Below are positions 3,366 to 53,035 of a DNA stretch of 64,000 nucleotides, piece after piece. The position numbers and the translations under genes are program-made. The stretch is from Tupaia tana (Eukaryota > Chordata > Mammalia > Scandentia > Tupaiidae): contig JAKSZU010000003.1 in NCBI GenBank assembly GCA_026018925.1, positions 191,228,139-191,292,138 on the forward strand, given 5' to 3'. How positions within the stretch are numbered: the first letter of the stretch is position 1; each line of letters starts with the position of its first letter. The notes beneath the pieces are model-generated. The model did not search any database. It had not been told where the DNA came from and was given only the letters and a program-made list of their open reading frames with translations.

Positions 3366-4921
3366 TCCAACATTGGGAGAAAAAGAGCTGTCAAAAAGTA
3401 AAATAGATAGCAAGAACAAAGATGAATGGTCATCACAGGCAGGGTAGGCAGCAGAGCTTTGGCTGGGCCCACAGCTGGGTTCACTTATACCTAGGCTTTC
3501 CTCCATGTTGGGGCTGGGCTACACCTTGTGTAGAAGCTCTCCTGGTCCACCTAATCTGGCTGGACCCTGCCAGCTAGAAACAATACCTTGAAGCATCACT
3601 CCTGCCAGAGTTGATCTGCAGTCCAGTGATGGCAGGAACCTCTGCAGTCATAGGTTCTTTTTCTGAACTTCCAAGAACTGTAGATTGTAGTCCTGGCAAG
3701 GGACTGAGATGGCTTATCCTAGCCTTTCTTACAGGTGAGGCAACAGAGGTAAGCTTCAGTCAGAGGATTCTTCCCAGCCAGCTATGGACTCTCAGCTTGG
3801 TTTTACACTATATCCCGTGGCCTAAGAGTGGAAGAGAAGCCCCAGTCCTTCGTGGGCAGGAGGTTAAATTACTAGGGGATTAGGGGAATATGCCTAGAGT
3901 CATGATAGATAGAAAATCTTCTGATTCTTAATCCTGTCCTTCATGGCAATTCACTGGAAGAACCAGAAGCAGCATATGCTTAGAAATAAGTTTGTATCTT
4001 TGCTTTGACATGTGTTTATCCTCAGTATATCCTGACTTCCTCCCTGTGTTTGGCAAAGGCTGAGATGGGCTGGTGGGTGGAGGCCAGAAGTGAAAGATGC
4101 TGGCCCCACCCAGTGCCCGATGAGCTCATCTGTAGCCTGCCCAGTCTTTCAGAGCTCTCTGACTTGCAAGACTGTTTTTATTGTATGGGTTGGCAAAGTA
4201 CTCTTCAAATAGTGTTCTCAGAATCTTCTTCTCCTTTCCAGCAGCAGATAAGAAATCCTGTGACAGAAAAATACATGCCTTTGAGAACATGCTGGAGGCA
4301 AAGGAAAGAGAGAATGCTTTTAGGGGTATGTGGGTGATGGGGGACACACCTGTGTGTGAGCAGGGCAAAGGAGCTCAGAGAACCAGAAACAAAAGTAGGC
4401 AAGAGTAAACAACCTGCACCAGTTCAAGGGGAGGCCAAGCTAGTCCCCAAGTCCTTCCACCAAAACATTTGACATGTTTGCGAGGAGAAGGGCCCTTGGG
4501 GTCAGGCTTACAGTGTACTGGGAGGGGCAGAAGATTGAATAGAAGAATGGAATTTCCCTTCGATAAGGAGAAGCCAAAATTATTAAATCAGTTGGTTTTG
4601 TTGTTGTTGTTGTTGTTTTAGTTCCTATGGTTTCCTTTTCTCTACAAATAAAAATTTTTTACAGAGAAATTACATAAGAGGACATTAACAGGGGGTACAA
4701 ATTATCATCTGCGATGATTTTTAGAACCAGTTTATCAACCACTTCAGATAAGAACTTTTGTTGTATCTGATTGGAGCAATAGAAAATAGAGTTGGTCTGC
4801 AGTCCAGTGATGCCAGGAACCTCTTTAGTCATAGGTTCTTTTATTACTATAAAGGCCATGTTATTACTATACATTGAACATGAACTTGCCTTGTATTTTT
4901 ATTTCTTTATTTTCTTTCTTT
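3366..4921. other. Intronic sequence, no gene
   Basis: Mostly single-copy. A short segment, TCTGCAGTCCAGTGATGCCA (about 4797) and TCTGCAGTCCAGTGATGGCA (about 3617), occurs twice 1.2 kb apart with the following 30 bases. No exon signals or RNA genes seen. Confidence 0.4.
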
Positions 4922-8145: not shown

Positions 8146-8896
8146 TGGGCCATTAAATTGGTCCTTTGAAAACAAATTTCAACAAGCCTTGTGAATAGTT
8201 CAGAAGATCAAAGATGAATGGCCCACAGGTTGACTTATGTCCCACCTCCTGTAGGGAGGAGCCGGATTTCCCTAAATACTTAAACAGACCACACTGAGTA
8301 TACCATCCCTGCTCAAGGTATGTGCAGCTAATTCTCTGAGCAGCCTGGCTGACATTAGTGCCCTGCCTTGGTTAGCTAGGCAGTGGCAGCTTTGAGAGCC
8401 ACAGTTAACTCTAGCCATCACTGTGGAGGTTGCAAACATCATATAGGCTGCACATCCCTAATCCAAAGATTGGCAGTGCTCCAAAATCTCGTTCTGAGCA
8501 CTGGCATGATGCCACAAGAAGAAAATTCAAACGTGACCTCATGTCACAGTCAGAATGCTACAGTACAAAAATACTGCATAAAATTAACTTCAGGCTAATT
8601 GTGTAAGGTAAGGTGTATAAGGTATAAGTGAAACATAAGCAAATGTGTTTAGATGTGAATCCATCCCCAAGGTACCTCAGCCAGACAGGATTACCATGTT
8701 CTGGTTAACCAGGAGGAATCTGAACCCTGGGCCTTCCCATGTGGCTTCAGATTATACTGCAGTGCCTATGCCTCTGTAGCTGGGCTAGGTTGGGGACAGA
8801 GATCTCTGGGGACATTTTCACTAGCCCATGGCACAACAAAATACCACTATGACACATTTTTCTTAAAGCCAAATTGCTTTATAGAACTGTCTTTAT
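8146..8896. other. Intronic sequence, no gene
   Basis: A decayed SINE head may lie at 8690-8785 (GAATCTGAACCCTGGGCCTT). Nothing else recognised. Confidence 0.4.
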
Positions 8897-9178: not shown

Positions 9179-9516
9179 ATGACACAAGGATTCCCTCCCT
9201 TGTTGATTGTAAGGCAGCCTTTCTTGAATAAAATGGTCATAGGTGGCAGGTCATTAATACTCTTAACTGTGCAAAATAAAAAGATGACAGCTTATGCTAG
9301 TCAGCCACATCCTTTCTGATTTTCATTAGGAATTACTTCTCTAGTGAACCAGGACACACCACAGTAGGAGGTATTGTTCTCCCATGTGAATCCAGCCATG
9401 AAGGCATTCCCTTAAAGGCCAGAAATATACTTGCTCTGAAGAAAAAAAGTTAACTCCCAAAATGAAATCAAATTGGATGTTGGAAGGCTGAGATGACCAC
9501 ACTGGTGGGAACATGC
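9179..9516. other. Intronic sequence, no gene
   Basis: AT-rich single-copy sequence up to the composite element. No exon signals. Confidence 0.4.
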
Positions 9517-9535
9517 AAAAACGTCCCAAAGACAG
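9517..9535. repeat. TSD, left copy, of composite retroelement
   Basis: AAAAACGTCCCAAAGACAG precedes the first VNTR base and recurs at 12804-12822. The five A are ambiguous because the right copy abuts the poly(A). Confidence 0.92.
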
Positions 9536-11034
9536 GGGACCGGGGCCGCCCGCCTCTGGGCCCGCGGCCAGCGCGCGGGGCCGCCGGCCTCTGGGCCCGC
9601 GCGGGACCGGGGCCGCCCGCCTCTGGGCCTGCGTGGGACCGGGGCCGGCGCGCTGGGCCTCTCGCCTCTGGGCCTGCGCGGGACCGGGGCCGCCCGCCTC
9701 TCGGCCCGCGCGGGACCGGGGCCGCCCGCCTCTGGGCCCGCGGCCAGCGCGCGGGGCCGCCGGCCTCTGGGCCCGCGCGGGACCGGGGCCGCCCGCCTCT
9801 GGGCCTGCGTGGGACCGGGGCCGGCGCGCTGGGCCTCTCGCCTCTGGGCCTGCGCGGGACCGGGGCCGCCCGCCTCTGGGCCCGCGCGGGACCGGGGCTG
9901 CCCGCCTCTGGGCGCACGCGGGACCGGGGCCGGCGCGCTAGGCCGCCCGCCTCTGGGCCCGCGCGGGACCGGGGCCGCCCGCCTCTGGGCCCGCGGCCAG
10001 CGCGCGGGGCCGCCGGCCTCTGGGCCCGCGCGGGACCGGGGCCGCCCGCCTCTGGGCCTGCGTGGGACCGGGGCCGGCGCGCTGGGCCTCTCGCCTCTGG
10101 GCCTGCGAGGGACCGGGGCCGCCCGCCTCTGGGCCCGCGCGGGACCGGGGCTGCCCGCCTCTGGGCGCACGCGGGACCGGGGCCGGCGCGCTAGGCCGCC
10201 CGCCTCTGGGCCCGCGCGGGACCGGGGCCGCCCGCCTCTGGGCCTGTGTGGGACCGGGGCCGGCGCGCTGGGCCTCTCGCCTCTGGGCCTGCGCGGGACC
10301 GGGGCCGCCCGCCTCTGGACCCGTGGCCAGCGCGCGGGGCCGCCGGCCTCTGGGCCCGCGCGGGACCGGGGCCGCCCGCCTCTGGGCCTGCGTGGGACCG
10401 GGGGCCGGCGCGCTGGGCCTCTCGCCTCTGGGCCCGCGCGGGACCGGGGCTGCCCGCCTCTGGGCGCACACGGGACCAGGGGCCGGCGCGCTAGGCCGCC
10501 TGCCTCTGGGCCCGCGCGGGACCGGGGCCGCCCGCCTCTGGGCCCGCGCGGGACCGGGGCCGCCCGCCTCTGGGCCCGCGGCCAGCGCGCGGGGCCGCCG
10601 GCCTCTGGGCCCGCGCGGGACCGGGGCCGCCCGCCTCTGGGCCTGCGTGGGACCGGGGCCGGCGCGCTGGGCCTCTCGCCTCTGGGCCTGCGCGGGACCG
10701 GGGCCGCCCGCCTCTGGGCCCGCGCGGGACCGGGGCCGCCCGCCTCTGGGCCCGCGGCCAGCGCGCGGGGCCGCCGGCCTCTGGGCCCGCGCGGGACCGG
10801 GGCCGCCCGCCTCTGGGCCTGCGTGGGACCGGGGCCGGCGCGCTGGGCCTCTCGCCTCTGGGCCTGCGCGGGACCGGGGCTGCCCGCCTCTGGGCCCGCG
10901 CGGGACCGGGGCCGCCCGCCTCTGGGCGCGCGGGACCGGGGCCAGCGCGCTGGGCCGGCCGCCTCTGGGCCTGCGCGGGACCGGGGCCGCCCGCCTCTGG
11001 GCCTGCGCGGGGACCGGGGCTGCCCGACTCTGGG
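9536..11034 (+). repeat. VNTR domain 1: higher-order array of 32/35/45-bp GC units
   Basis: About forty tandem units, most ending GCCTCT, fall into three length classes: 32 bp (GGGCCCGCGCGGGACCGGGG core), 35 bp (with CGGCCAGCGCGCGG) and 45 bp (with GGCGCGCT). They follow a repeated order. The 35-bp unit recurs at 9558, 9734, 9987 and 10317, giving higher-order periods of 176 and 253 bp. The array is almost pure G+C and extremely CpG-dense. Lack of T/A explains very long open frames on both strands, which are not genes. Confidence 0.93.
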
Positions 11035-11205
11035 CACTCGGCGCCTCTGCTTCGCGTTCCGCAGTCGAGGCCGCCCAGCCCCTGCTGCCCCTCCGGCGCT
11101 GGGTGTGTCCCGCGCTCGGCGCCGACGCTGCCTGGCAGCACTCTGACCAGGCAGGCGAACCGGAGGTGGCGCTGGGTCCCGCGCGCATTCGCGTGCTCGG
11201 GGGCT
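11035..11205 (+). other. GC-rich linker between the two VNTRs
   Basis: This non-repeated CpG-rich stretch includes CGGCGCCTCTGCTTCGCGTT and CCTGGCAGCACTCTGACC. It may be the original unit border or part of a 5'UTR/promoter. No homology recognised. Confidence 0.6.
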
Positions 11206-11768
11206 GGTGTGTGCCCGCTGGGCCTGCGCGTGGCCGCCGGGCCTGAGCGTGGTTGCACGCGCTTGGGGCTGACGTGTGGCCGTCGGGCCTACACGTGACC
11301 GCCGGGTCAGCGCATGGCCGCTGGGTCTGCGAGTGGCCGCTGGGCACACGCATGGCCCCCAGACTGGCGAGTGGCTGCCGGGTCTGAATGTGGCTGCCGG
11401 GCCCGCTCCTGTGCATGGCCGCCGGGCCTGCGCCTACACATGGCTCCCGGGCCGGAGCGTGGTCACTGGGCCGGCGCACGCCGGGCCTGCGTGTGGCTCC
11501 CGGGCCTGCGAGTGGCCACCGGGCCTGTGCATGACCTCCAGGTTGGCGAGTGGCCACCAGGTCTGAGCATGGCCGCCGGTCCTGTGTGTGGCCGCCGGGC
11601 CTGTGCCCGTGCGTGGCCGCCGGGCCTGTGTGTGATCGCCGGGCCTGTGCGTGGTCGCCGGGCATGCGCCCACGCGTGGCCGCCGGGCCCGCGCATGGCT
11701 GCCGGGCCTGCGCCCAGGCGTGGCCAACGAGCCTGCCCGTGACCGCCGGGCCTGCACGTGACCGGCGG
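11206..11768 (+). repeat. VNTR domain 2: degenerate ~19-bp units
   Basis: About 26-28 units of the form GTGGCCGCCGGGCCTGYGC, some extended by about 6 bp (for example CCGTGC), are less uniform than domain 1 and differ from it in sequence. The period is 19 or 25 bp. It ends at GACCGGCGGTTGCGAGCAGC, where composition drops sharply. Confidence 0.9.
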
Positions 11769-12210
11769 TTGCGAGCAGCAAACTGAAGCCGAAAACAAGG
11801 ATTAAGATCTTGCAAATATAAGCAGAAGAAGGAAACCTTGGATGTCTTAAACCAATTGAGAAATGTATGGTATAGGAGGATTTTCGCTGCCTATGGGCAG
11901 TGAGAAGGCGATGGTACCAGCCCTGCATTACCTCAGGGAAAAATAAGAACTATTCTACCATTCTTAAGGAAGCCAGATACTCGAGGATGACTCACGCTGC
12001 AGATCCCCACAACACCATCCTCGGTAATCACAGGATGGATGCTGTGCTGCATCAGCTGATAACCGTCTCTGCCTACCAGAACTGCGTTCCTGAAACTGTA
12101 CTCCATAGAGACTCACCTACAACTGCGGAGCTGCACGAGACCCACCCTTGACCCAACCCTGAATAGAACCTATGTTTCCTATTGTGGAAAACTTTATGAG
12201 CTCATAATTG
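11769..12210 (+). other. Unique domain A of the composite element
   Basis: Single-copy-looking sequence of normal GC content runs from AGCAAACTGAAGCCG to CTTTATGAGCTCATAATTG. An open frame of 83 codons (11900-12151) lacks any family I can support. The domain ends in an A-rich tract, so it could descend from a separate polyadenylated RNA captured by the element. Confidence 0.6.
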
Positions 12211-12240
12211 AAAAAGGAAAAAAAAAAAAAAAAAAAAAAA
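12211..12240 (+). repeat. Internal A tract of the composite element
   Basis: Five A, GG, then 23 uninterrupted A lie in the middle of the element, not at its end. This looks like a fossil poly(A) tail joining two retrotranscribed parts. Confidence 0.7.
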
Positions 12241-12770
12241 GGATGAAAGATCTGGAGGGTATGGTCGCAGGGATGGCAACTGCAGATGCTGGAGACAGCA
12301 CGGGAGAGGTAATGGGAATGAATGATGGAGGGCGGTTCAGGGAACGATCATCACGTTTGATGGACACAGGGGTGAAGGGTGGTCTGTTGAAGATGATGTA
12401 TGTGGGGGTATCATTGTCTTGGCTAATGTTAACTATACTCATGCTGGAAGGGACCATGCTGTACACTGTAAAGATGTCCAATGAAAAAAAAAATAATGAT
12501 AACATTATCGGCACTCTGGCAGAAGGAAAAAGATCCAATGATATGATAGCGGAAAGGATAAATGTGGATGCCGGAGCCTGTAAGGGAGGGGAGTGGGTGG
12601 TCAGGAGAGGGTGGTAGAAAGTGGGCGTGGGGGGCAAAAGGAGGAATCAGTTAACACCAAAAAAAGTAGAGTTCTCTGTTGAAAACTATATACATATATG
12701 TATATTGTATACATCATAATGGGAACTTTATGTAAAATGAATTTAATTAATCTGAGAAAAATAAAATAAA

Positions 12771-12772
<2 letters not shown>
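12241..12772 (+). other. Unique domain B with G-rich purine tract
   Basis: This segment ends in a polyadenylation signal run and the poly(A). Around 12580-12645 it has a G-rich purine tract (GGGAGGGGAGTGGGTGG and similar), a feature typical of mammalian L1 3'UTRs, followed by AT-rich sequence. An L1 3'UTR origin is an inference and could not be confirmed against the other L1 3' ends here. A 124-codon sense frame at 12243-12617 is unassigned. Confidence 0.55.
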
Positions 12773-12803
<31 letters not shown>

Positions 12804-12809
<6 letters not shown>

Positions 12810-12822
12810 GTCCCAAAGACAG
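12804..12822. repeat. TSD, right copy, of composite retroelement
   Basis: This is the same 19 bases as 9517-9535, following the poly(A) tail. The sequence then returns to ordinary AT-rich intron. Confidence 0.92.
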
Positions 12823-13012
12823 AGGCCTAGAAAAAGCTCCAGCTAGTAAAGGCTTGCAAAAATCATTCTCATGTAAAAAAAATACAGTGGGGTCTCAATC
12901 AGGGACTTGATTCTTTCTCTTACCCACCTAACTTTCCAGGACAGAAGAGACCCTAAGAAATCAAAATTGAGATTCCAAGTAGAAAAGTTAAGATTAAAAA
13001 TTATTACTTGGG

Positions 13013-23430: not shown

Positions 23431-24167
<737 letters not shown>

Positions 24168-30546: not shown

Positions 30547-30815
30547 CGGGAACCAGCAGTTAGCGTAATGGCTATGTCGCTGGACTCCCACGTAGTCGAC
30601 CGCGGTTCGCGTCTCGGACCCGGTGGCTTACAACTCACGCCGGGCGCGTGTGCGTGCGTGCCCAAGATCCCGAGAGGAGAATGGAGGAGAAGGGATTGCG
30701 GCGTGACCATCCCCCCTGGGGGGTGATTTCTCGCTTTCTGTCTCTCTGTCTCTCTCTGTCTGTCCGGCGAGCGCACGCGCCCTATAGCGAAAAACCTCTC
30801 AAAAAAAAAAAAAAA
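30547..30815 (+). mobile_element. L-type SINE (plus), young subfamily type copy
   Basis: Exact TSD AAACTTTATCTGTGT (30532-30546 and 30816-30830). Intact CpGs and diagnostic GGGAACC, GGTTCGCGTCTC, CTTACAACTC and GCGTGACC. Confidence 0.94.
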
Positions 30816-30884
30816 AAACTTTATCTGTGTGGTTATATAACTCAAGAATTCAGATTCATCATTTGTTCCTACGAGAACTTTTTA

Positions 30885-37888: not shown

Positions 37889-38190
37889 AACCCAGCTGTG
37901 GTAACATGTGCTGTCCAGACACTATGCTCTGCAGTCTGAGACCTGGGAGACCTGGGTTCAATTCCCAGATCAACCTAAGGGCTGGGCGTGGTAGCATGCC
38001 CCTGAAATCCCAGTGACTTGGGGAGGCAGAGGCAGGAGGGTCATTCGCTCAAGGCTGGCTGAGCAACCTGGTGAGACCCTGTCTAACAAAGAGCCGGACA
38101 CGGTGACACATGCCTGTCATCCCAGCTAGAAGGCCAAGGCAGGAAGATCGTAACATGGGAGATCTTATCTTTAAACGAAGAAAGAAAATA
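37889..38190 (+). mobile_element. tRNA/7SL-like chimeric SINE
   Basis: A tRNA-like part with box B-like GGTTCAATTCCCAG (37953) is followed by 7SL/Alu-like GGCTGGGCGTGGTAGCATG, GGGGAGGCAGAGGCAGGAGG and GTGAGACCCTGTCTAACAAA, and then a second 7SL-like copy CCGGACACGGTGACACATGC. Confidence 0.75.
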
Positions 38191-41490: not shown

Positions 41491-41699
41491 GAGATTTAGG
41501 GCATTCATGCAAATATACCCAGGGTGCTTTTCTTCTTCCTTTTTTTTTTCTATTTTATTTTATAATTTTTTATTTACATTTAATTGTACATCTTTGTAGA
41601 GCACAACATGGATTTTCACAACATTTCATGCAGTGAATGAAAATAAAATCAAGGATAATACCATATTCATCATTTTCAACAATGTACACTACATTTGAG

Positions 41700-41795: not shown

Positions 41796-42178
41796 ATTGG
41801 CACTGTCTGCTTTTCTCACTCAGTTGCAGTATGCTTTCCACAACCCATTTGCCCTATCTACCTGCATTCCTGTGTCTGTCAAATACTTTTTTTGATCCCA
41901 ACTTATCCCCCCCAATCCAACCCCCTTCCCTTATGCATTTTCTGTTATTTACAATTGTTCTCTACTTCCGCATCTTCAAGCGTGTACTGATGTCTATCGC
42001 AGATGGAATTGCTTTCTTCAGTTCTGTCTGTCTGTTTATTGCTGGTGTATAAAAAGCTATAGATTTCTGTATATCAACTTTGTATCCTGTAACTTTACTG
42101 GAATGCCTTTTATTTCACTCTCCTGTCTGATTACATAAGCTGGGACTTCCAATACTATATTGAAAAAGAATGGAGAGG

Positions 42179-42388
42179 GGCCGGCAGGTGGCATAGTGGT
42201 TAGGGGTGCTGGACTCCCGCATGGGTTTGAGTGTGGTTTGAGTCCTGGGCCTGGTGGCTTGCTTTCTTGCTTTCTCTCTCTCTCTCACTCTGTCCCTCTC
42301 TGGTGAAATTAAAGTAAGTAAACAAATAAATAAAGTTAAATAAAATAGTTGTTTTTTTTTTTTTTTTTAAGAAAAAAAAGAAAAGAAA
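42179..42388 (+). mobile_element. S-type SINE (plus) in L1
   Basis: GGGGCCGGCAGGTGGCATAG head, TCTGGTGAAATTAAAGTAAG and a T/A tail. AAAAAGAATGGAGA and AAAAATAATGGAGA flank it. Confidence 0.88.
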
Positions 42389-42600
42389 AATAATGGAGAA
42401 AGTGGACAAGCTTGTCTTGTTTCAGTCTTCAGTGGGGAAGCTTTCAGCTTTTCCCATTCAATATAATGTTAGTTATAGATTTGTCATAGATGACTTTTAT
42501 TGTGTTGGGATATATACCTCTGTACATATTTTGTTGAGAGTCTTAATCATGAAGGGATGTTACATTTTACCAAATGTATTTTCTTTATCTATTTATATGA

Positions 42601-42696
42601 CCAGGGTGCTTTTCAGGCTGCCAGGGCCAAGGCTTGAATAACGGTCAGCCATGTGGGATCCAGCTCCCTTAACTACTAGGCCACAGGCGAGCCCTC
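42601..42696 (-). mobile_element. Old SINE head fragment (minus)
   Basis: CAGGCTGCCAGGGCCAAGGC, AATAACGGTCAGCCATGTGG and CACAGGCGAGCCC. Confidence 0.65.
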
Positions 42697-47882: not shown

Positions 47883-48826
47883 TTTTTTTTTTAGAGTGCA
47901 GACACTCGGTATATATTAAGTGGGGACATACAATGCCTCTCCTTCATAGCATGGCTTGCTTCACTCAGCAGTAAGTCTTCCATATTCATCCATTTCCTTT
48001 CAAAAGCCAGGGTTTTGTTGTTTTTTATGGATAAATAGTATTCCATTGAGTATATGTGCCACAGTTTTTCTAACCATGCATCAGTTCGTGGGCATTCAGG
48101 TTGTTTCCATGACTTAGCAATCATGAAAAGTGCCGCAATAAACATCGACGTGCAAGCACTTTTTCGATTAAGTATTCTTCTGTCCTTCGGGTAGATACCA
48201 AGGAGTGGGATTGCTGGATCATATGGTAGTTCTATTTGTAGATTTTGGAGGAATCTCCAAATTGTTTTCCACAGTAGTTGGACCAATTTACAATCCCACC
48301 AGCAGTGTAAGAGAGTTCCCTTTTCACCACACCCCTTCCAGCACTTATCATTTTTTGTTTTTTTAATCTTAGACATTCTGACTGGGGTTAGGTGATATCT
48401 CATTGTTGTTTTGATCTGCATTTCTCTTACAATGAGGGATGTTGAGCATTTTTTCATATGCCTTTTAGCTATTCGTATGTCATCTTTAGAGAGTGGTTTT
48501 TTCAGCTCATTCTCCCATCTTTTAATAGGATTGATTGTCTTTTTCCAGAACAGCTGCTTGAGTTCCTTGTGAATTCTGGTTATCAGTCCCTTGTCTGATG
48601 CATAGTTTACAAAAATATTTTCCCATTCTGAGGGCTGTCTGTTCACACTAATCACTGTGTCTTTTGCCATGCAGAAACTTCTTAGTCTGATGTAATCCCA
48701 CTTGTCTATTTTATGGATCATAGACTGTGCGTTGGGAGAGCCTCTGATCTTAAACAGTTGGGAATCTACCTTGCAGGGGTTATTCTGCCTGAAATCAACA
48801 GACTTTCCTTTGCATGCATCCAAATT
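47883..48826 (-). mobile_element. 5'-truncated L1 with open ORF2 C-terminus
   Basis: An unbroken 310-codon frame (48823 to stop at 47891) encodes the end of L1 ORF2, the reverse transcriptase/endonuclease protein. It includes the cysteine motif [18 protein letters not shown], then [17 protein letters not shown] and [15 protein letters not shown]. There is no catalytic RT or EN domain. The stop TAA passes directly into an A tract and (TA)n, so the usual 3'UTR is absent. The open frame indicates a young insertion. Confidence 0.9.
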
Positions 48827-52549: not shown

Positions 52550-52576
52550 AGGCACAGGGCAGTGAAGTGGGGCTAG

Positions 52577-52615
<39 letters not shown>

Positions 52616-52675
52616 GCAGTGAGGTGGCGCTAGCTGCGCACAGCACACACACACATGGCAGTGAGGTAGGGCTAG

Positions 52676-52710
<35 letters not shown>

Positions 52711-52816
52711 GCAGTGAGATGGCGCTAGCTGCGCACACACACACACAGCAGTGAGGTAGTGCTAGCTACACACACACACACACACACACAGAGGGCAGTG
52801 AGGTGGCACTAGCTAC

Positions 52817-52849
<33 letters not shown>

Positions 52850-52910
52850 GAGGGCAGTGAGGTGGCGCTAGCTACACACACACACACAGAGGTCAGTGAG
52901 GTGGCGGCTA

Positions 52911-52947
<37 letters not shown>

Positions 52948-53035
52948 GGGCAATGAAGTGGCGCTAGCTGCATACACACGCACACACCCCCACGGCAGTG
53001 AGGTGGGGCTAGCTACACACACACACACCTGCAGC
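52550..53035. repeat. CA-rich minisatellite, about ten units
   Basis: Each unit is GGGCAGTGAGGTGGCGCTAG followed by CTAC or CTGC and a variable (AC)n tract, giving unit lengths of about 40-60 bp. A compound mini/microsatellite with strong length instability expected. Confidence 0.93.

Follow-up and report, generated by a model that had tools for sequence, protein, structure and literature searches.

In a stretch of 64,000 nt from Tupaia tana (hereafter the window, by whose positions all element coordinates are given), two different tandem arrays, unique sequence and a poly(A) tail stand together between the two copies of a short direct repeat. What kind of unit is this, and where do its parts come from? 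We analyzed the window copy, searched the genome for its relatives, and compared the element with L1 and with the composite retrotransposons of apes. We find that the span is very probably one copy of a young, dispersed and non-autonomous retrotransposon family of the variable-number-tandem-repeat (VNTR) composite type. The copies have a common domain order, lie at distinct sites with their own target-site duplications (TSDs) and A tails, begin at variable 5' ends, and are ORF-less (ORF, open reading frame; here ORF1 and ORF2 of L1).

A single composite insertion

Direct comparison of the flanks showed a single insertion at 9536-12803, bounded by perfect 19-bp TSDs (AAAAACGTCCCAAAGACAG) at 9517-9535 and 12804-12822 that are identical at 19 of 19 positions. 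The element, all parts of which read on the forward strand, opens with array 1 (9536-11035), a GC-rich VNTR of 1500 bp that is built from units of 32, 35 and 45 bp. Our script cut this array into 36 pieces (19 of 32 bp, 6 of 35, 6 of 45 and 5 others), and its higher-order periods are 176 and 253 bp. The GC content of array 1 is 87% and its observed/expected CpG ratio 0.87, and the ratio in the DNA flanking the insertion is 0.20-0.31. A GC-rich non-repeated stretch (11036-11210, by direct reading) separates it from array 2 (11211-11768), for which periodicity analysis gave degenerate units of ~19 bp. Domain A (11769-12216) is unique sequence; an A-rich stretch begins after 12210 and runs into an internal A tract (12217-12240). 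Domain B (12241-12772) divides more naturally in two: B1 (12241-12505), whose final ~125 bp are related to an old L1 family's 3' end, and B2 (12506-12772), which is weakly similar to B1, contains a G-rich tract (12584-12611) and ends in AATAAA motifs, three of which overlap at 12760-12775 by direct reading. The poly(A) tail was likewise read directly at 12773-12803; 36 A run from 12773, and the last five of them may derive from the TSD. Sequence analysis therefore confirmed the initial annotation in its insertion with a TSD, two GC-rich arrays, two unique domains, polyadenylation signal and 36-nt poly(A), and also in the order of the domains; a small correction concerns domain B, which it treated as a single unit and for which B1 plus B2 fits better.

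Searches of RNA and virus collections were negative. Nothing in the whole window reached a gathering score in Rfam, and at E≤10 the region 9401-12950 gave two chance-level matches, with no signal recognition particle (SRP) RNA among the results. A piece of domain A was not found in a pattern scan of IMG/VR.

A dispersed family with a fixed domain order

We searched the genome (2.948 Gb in 1198 contigs) with the unique domains; every copy count given here includes the window copy. Neither domain is single-copy, and the two recur together genome-wide. In the domain B search, 40 of 2081 unverified candidates were scored, and all 40 were 99-100% identical over 530-532 of 532 bp. In the domain A search, 40 of 2900 unverified candidates were scored, and 39 of them had the top score, with 100% identity over 442 bp. 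A search for an exact 24-mer from the start of B gave 99 matches in the genome, compared with 0 for its reversed control. These 99 B-start sites are a lower bound because altered copies escape an exact 24-mer. We read 38 loci (8 centred on B and 30 on A; loci are given L numbers below), which lie at 33 distinct places, and the 24-mer is present at 32 of these. Domain A stands upstream in 8 of 8 B-centred loci and in 20 of 20 further B-start sites, and A or its 3' end in another 20 of 20, in which 110 bp upstream were read. In total, A or its 3' end lies directly upstream of B in all 48 loci that were not chosen by A. The A-centred loci carry B1 downstream in 30 of 30 cases and B2 in 29 of 30. 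Overall, 72 of the 99 B-start sites were read, each of them with A or its 3' end, and nine more adjoin A matches by coordinate. Shortened forms of domain A occur in L006, L077 and L098, and in L074, which retains just the last 34 bp. The initial annotation had held that many dispersed copies with the same domain order, different TSDs and a common 3' end would prove a family, and such copies are what the genome contains. A satellite or a flanking repeat arising by chance is ruled out by the genome-wide matches to A and B and the 99 B-start sites. Because the domains recur together across the genome, the insertion architecture is not due to chance.

The tract between A and B consists of 12-36 A in 68 of the 69 young copies that were read, and of 11, 11 and 8 A in three older ones. 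In the young copy L024, the script reads 0 A because another base stands directly before B. This tract is inherited, and it is longer in young copies. It bears on another account of the span, namely a one-off chimera in which the L1 reverse transcriptase switched templates and joined a poly(A) RNA (the arrays, A and the A tract) to an L1 3' end (B). The tract at 12217-12240 does resemble a poly(A) junction, and chimeras of this type are described in PMC13174262, where unrelated RNA parts are fused to an L1-related 3' end, as they are here. However, such chimeras are single events, whereas the present fusion was passed on through a whole family: the identical A-B junction was seen in every one of the 48 loci chosen without regard to A, and in the three older copies it has only 8-11 A. 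The junction is therefore inherited, and its recurrence refutes a one-off template switch for the present copies, which makes this account of the span extremely unlikely. Template switching could have fused A to B at the beginning of the family.

Insertion sites

TSDs were analyzed in the 15 loci that were read as far as the 5' end. Ten of these have a clean TSD of 13-19 bp (window, 19 bp; L038, 18 bp; L091, 16 bp; L020, L024, L089 and L090, 15 bp; L021, 14 bp; L015 and L035, 13 bp), and in a control 5 of 182 mismatched flank pairs reached 13 bp. Two pyrimidines precede at least three A, the preference of the L1 endonuclease, at 9 of the 13 target sites with a TSD of at least 9 bp; the window (GC/AAAAA), L015, L020 and L024 depart from this pattern. 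The 5' breakpoints of copies fall in array 1, array 2 or A. One copy (L035) stops ~9 bp into B2, and between this point and the TSD lie two A tracts separated by ~110 bp of foreign sequence, an arrangement that likely reflects 3' transduction from an already inserted copy. In L089 (~3474-3650), the 15-bp target sequence is present three times, and the composite and an L1-like 3' fragment lie side by side at one target site.

Several observations weigh against reading the span as a copy of a young mobile family. Five of the 15 insertion sites lack a clean TSD. The 14-bp TSD of L004 is a string found six times in the 3.5-kb locus, and this copy therefore seems to lie inside some other repeat. 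The TSD of L032 (18 bp, by eye) is of low complexity, those of L006 (9 bp) and L016 (8 bp, by eye) are both within the range of mismatched pairs, and none was seen in L012. In addition, the A-centred loci are the best 30 matches, so that youth and identity are biased upward. We did not find the origin of domain A or of the arrays, the donor locus of A not having been sought. Lastly, B1 shares 24 bp at 83% identity (E 0.003) with the 3' untranslated region (UTR) of a young L1, L060, although this match is borderline, with 37 of 500 shuffles as good.

Age and probable subfamilies

Divergence from the column majority in the A-selected loci is 0.14% in B1 (30 loci) and 0.24% in B2 (29 loci), and averages 0.37% in the stretch 11040-11210, or 0.06% outside CpG (27 loci); these figures describe the youngest layer only, because the loci are the best matches to A. 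Array 2 is less alike overall, with a mean of 98.6% to the window copy (28 loci). In array 1, the unit lengths are unchanged in other loci and the arrays themselves differ. The neutral rate is near 2e-9 per site and year. At this rate, the divergence of B would correspond to an age of around one million years or younger. The family may be active at present.

The family also has an older layer. Three older copies (L079, L084 and L087) have ~90-94% identity in A and B1 and keep the A-B layout with 8-11 A between. Two of these were also read as L089 (the same as L084) and L090 (the same as L087). Over A-B, L089 is 92.6% and L090 89.0% identical to the window copy, and the two are 90.9% identical to each other. 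Both are already ORF-less, and both contain arrays related to array 2 at 65-72%. L089 retains roughly one half of a 32-bp unit upstream of its array-2 region, possibly as the result of truncation. L090 opens with a CGG-rich, CpG-island-like stretch (~1498-1660) in place of array 1. Since L090 starts in this way, array 1 may be an addition of the young subfamily, as judged from one old copy. The CGG-rich start is also a possible trace of a founding transcript. Lineages lie ~90% apart, and some sequence changes are common to 3 loci and others to 9 loci; these groups look like subfamilies.

Could the copies instead have been retrocopied again and again from a single host transcript (a long non-coding RNA, or a gene that starts in a CpG island) that does not spread by itself? 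The CpG-island-type opening of old L090 in place of array 1 would fit such a source. So would the frames tested in and around A: no protein homologues were found for 12063-12614(+) and 11876-12148(+), the long array frames not having been searched, and no Pfam match for these two or for 12197-12646(-). However, the separate lineages with their shared changes resemble subfamilies, and the foreign sequence between two A tracts within one TSD in L035 is arranged as it would be after 3' transduction. We regard retrocopies of a host transcript as improbable and keep to a retrotransposon family.

Relation to L1

The initial annotation had offered two origins, an independently evolved VNTR composite or an L1 with deleted ORFs. 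Under the latter, the arrays and A would be the 5' UTR and B the 3' UTR of an autonomous L1 whose ORF1 and ORF2 were lost, similar to other L1-derived deletion families. A genome search with RVT_1 returned many L1s, of which 150 of 24721 candidates were scored, with recurrent open frames of 1290 and 1343 codons. For comparison with young L1s we read four 10-kb loci of these two types. The 1290 type is represented by L059 and L060, with 99.1% identity over 4368 bp, and the 1343 type by L061 and L062, with 99.5% identity over 6126 bp. L059 has 240/129-bp monomers in its 5' UTR and leaves L1 sequence soon after ORF2 (beyond ~8604), L060 is 5'-truncated with its 3' UTR and A tail present, and L061 and L062 have 158-bp monomers in the 5' UTR and a common 3' UTR.

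None of five segments of the composite matched these four loci at E 1e-3. A sensitive comparison with the 5' regions of L059, L061 and L062 gave chance-level matches only (best E 0.035), and the 3' UTRs of L060, L061 and L062 had no significant match in the composite (B1 and B2 against the 3' UTRs of L060 and L061: 37, 202, 422 and 84 of 500 shuffles as good). The 24-bp stretch of L060 mentioned above lies at ~8620-8645, about where the profile of old L1 3' ends described below also matches B1. There was also no match between the composite and 20 L1 loci centred on the reverse transcriptase, which do not reach the UTRs. The ORF1 and ORF2 proteins of the young L1s found nothing in the element and matched the window only at 41995-42613 and 47894-48739; ORF1/ORF2 matches within composite loci are read as flanking L1s. 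The second of the window matches, 47894-48739(-), is a C-terminal ORF2 fragment with 84% protein identity to the 1290-codon young L1 over 279 residues. The composite is therefore not one of the sampled young L1s with its coding part removed, because their monomeric 5' UTRs differ from its arrays and their 3' UTRs have no significant similarity to it, and an internally deleted copy of a current L1 is unsupported for these two types.

The alignment of domain B to L1 gave a different result for old L1s. Outside the insertion, the window contains the 3' end of an old L1 at 41557-41681(-), adjoining old ORF2 remains at 41995-42613(-). (A PDB search with 41965-42087(-) returned no L1 protein; two neighbouring pieces did match L1 protein.) The last 125 bp of B1 are 65% identical to this end over 125 bp, and none of 500 shuffles is as good. 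Six old copies of the L1 3' end were compared, and three of them (L065, L068 and the window's own copy, L063) still have remains of ORF2. Four of the six match B1 at E 0.01, one weakly matches B2, and none matches A. A profile of old L1 3' ends scores B1 at 33.4 bits (E 7.5e-11), compared with 2.6 bits for the best of 300 shuffles. A younger L1-like end beside L089 also matches B1, with a score of 27 compared with a maximum of 13 in 500 mononucleotide shuffles. From these alignments we conclude that B1, in its final part, is related to an old L1 3' end. For B2, 6 of 500 shuffles are as good as its match to the window's old L1 end. Further alignments did not rise above shuffles: B2 with the L1 fragment beside L089, B1 with the stretch just 5' of the old L1 end, and domain A with the old L1 end or with either part of B. 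Between B1 and B2 there is a weak resemblance, which 3 of 500 shuffles equal, and B may therefore be a doubled L1 3' end.

How far do these matches support descent from L1? Given the kinship between the last part of B1 and an old L1 3' end, descent from an extinct L1 is conceivable, and the borderline stretch common to B1 and L060 and the B2 match to the old end point in the same direction. Against this stand the young L1 UTRs and the reverse-transcriptase-centred loci, which yielded no significant match, and the old L1 3' ends, which leave A unmatched. Moreover, the two copies at 89-93% identity were already ORF-less, and B occurs without an upstream A in none of the 48 loci not selected on A. 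We consider an ORF-less descendant of L1 unlikely and, of the two origins first offered, favour the independent VNTR composite, given that the UTRs of the young L1s sampled have no significant similarity to the element and that two of its older copies are already ORF-less.

Comparison with known systems and proposed life cycle

VNTR composites are described as hominoid-specific elements with a 5' region of CT hexamers and Alu-like sequence, a GC-rich VNTR and 3' parts that vary (PMC4432496 and PMC5753468); the former paper also places SVA2, the ancestor, in macaque and an L1 fragment in the 3' part of LAVA. Like the hominoid elements (SVA, LAVA, PVA and FVA), the present family is non-autonomous, has poly(A) and L1-type TSDs, and is dispersed in many copies. 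It resembles SVA and LAVA in a GC-rich VNTR of ~30-50-bp units with higher-order arrays in young subfamilies and in a 3' part of other origin, which here includes an L1-related piece. Unlike SVA and LAVA, it has no CT hexamer (CCCTCT is absent and AGAGGG occurs once in 9517-12822) and no Alu-like region (the head of the Alu consensus finds nothing in the element). In addition, its VNTR lies at the 5' end instead of mid-element, a second array of 19-bp units is present, the host is not an ape, and the 3' domains are probably others than the ape 3' parts (SINE-R, AluSz-L1ME, PTGR2 or FRAM), B1 ending in sequence related to an old L1 of this genome. The description of the element as SVA-like thus holds for its plan (a GC-rich VNTR, a unique 3' part, poly(A) and L1-type insertion) but not for its parts, the CT hexamer and the Alu-like region being missing. 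The family probably works like SVA and LAVA but is not a member of their group. By title or abstract, we found no VNTR composite or colugo retrotransposon outside apes among the open-licence papers listed. L1s with a mouse-type monomeric 5' UTR are similar in having GC-rich 5' tandem units, then a non-repeated stretch, poly(A) and a TSD (PMC9022269), but the present element lacks ORF1 and ORF2. It is also unlike the young L1s sampled from its own genome, in both monomers and 3' UTRs.

We propose the following life cycle. RNA polymerase II would initiate in or near the CpG-rich 5' region, the putative promoter, and produce one unspliced RNA containing array 1, array 2, A, the A tract, B1 and B2. 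The AATAAA cluster that closes B2 would direct cleavage and polyadenylation of this RNA. Host L1 proteins, acting in trans, would next integrate it by target-primed reverse transcription, so that each new copy gains an A tail and a TSD and some copies lose part of their 5' end. Expansion and contraction of the arrays would take place in the DNA. A broader reading, to which we give an even chance, is that the family represents a second independent mammalian origin of the SVA-type design: its 5' VNTR would serve as a promoter, it would have spread long before the present burst (copies are ~10% diverged), it would have acquired a new VNTR in its youngest subfamily, and it would still be jumping.

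If this family with the same plan is indeed unrelated, it would be the plan that recurs and not the ape parts. The absence of the CT hexamer and the Alu-like region offers a natural test of which pieces are dispensable, and the family looks like an independent counterpart of SVA in which the needs of such elements for spreading can be tested. Young CpG-rich insertions are a possible source of new CpG islands and of polymorphism in the host, and the VNTR permits array change to be followed between near-identical copies.

Other repeats in the window

Repeats of the genome and of the window support a non-ape host, as the initial annotation had suggested: the 5' UTRs of the L1s sampled are monomeric, which those of human L1 are not (PMC9022269), and a tRNA-like short interspersed element (SINE) is dense in the window. 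This SINE, whose head was recognized by eye, is ~270 bp long (e.g. 30548-30818) and accounts for 57 merged pieces and 10.9 kb of the window, some pieces being only its CT-rich part. It is young too, because the copy at 30548 has 97-98% identity to two others. An old 7SL/Alu-like dimer at 37980-38149(+) has halves that are 74-77% identical to the Alu head, and matches SRP RNA in Rfam at 24.3 and 15.3 bits, below the gathering score. The dimer is consistent with a host among Euarchontoglires, in which 7SL-like SINEs are reported (PMC7245038).

Two further features lie outside these groups. An open frame at 23648-24136(-) matches ribosomal protein L21e over the full Pfam profile and is probably a processed pseudogene. 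At 52553-53028, a compound array alternates (CA)n runs with a ~22-bp motif resembling GGGCAGTGAGGTGGCGCTAGCT.

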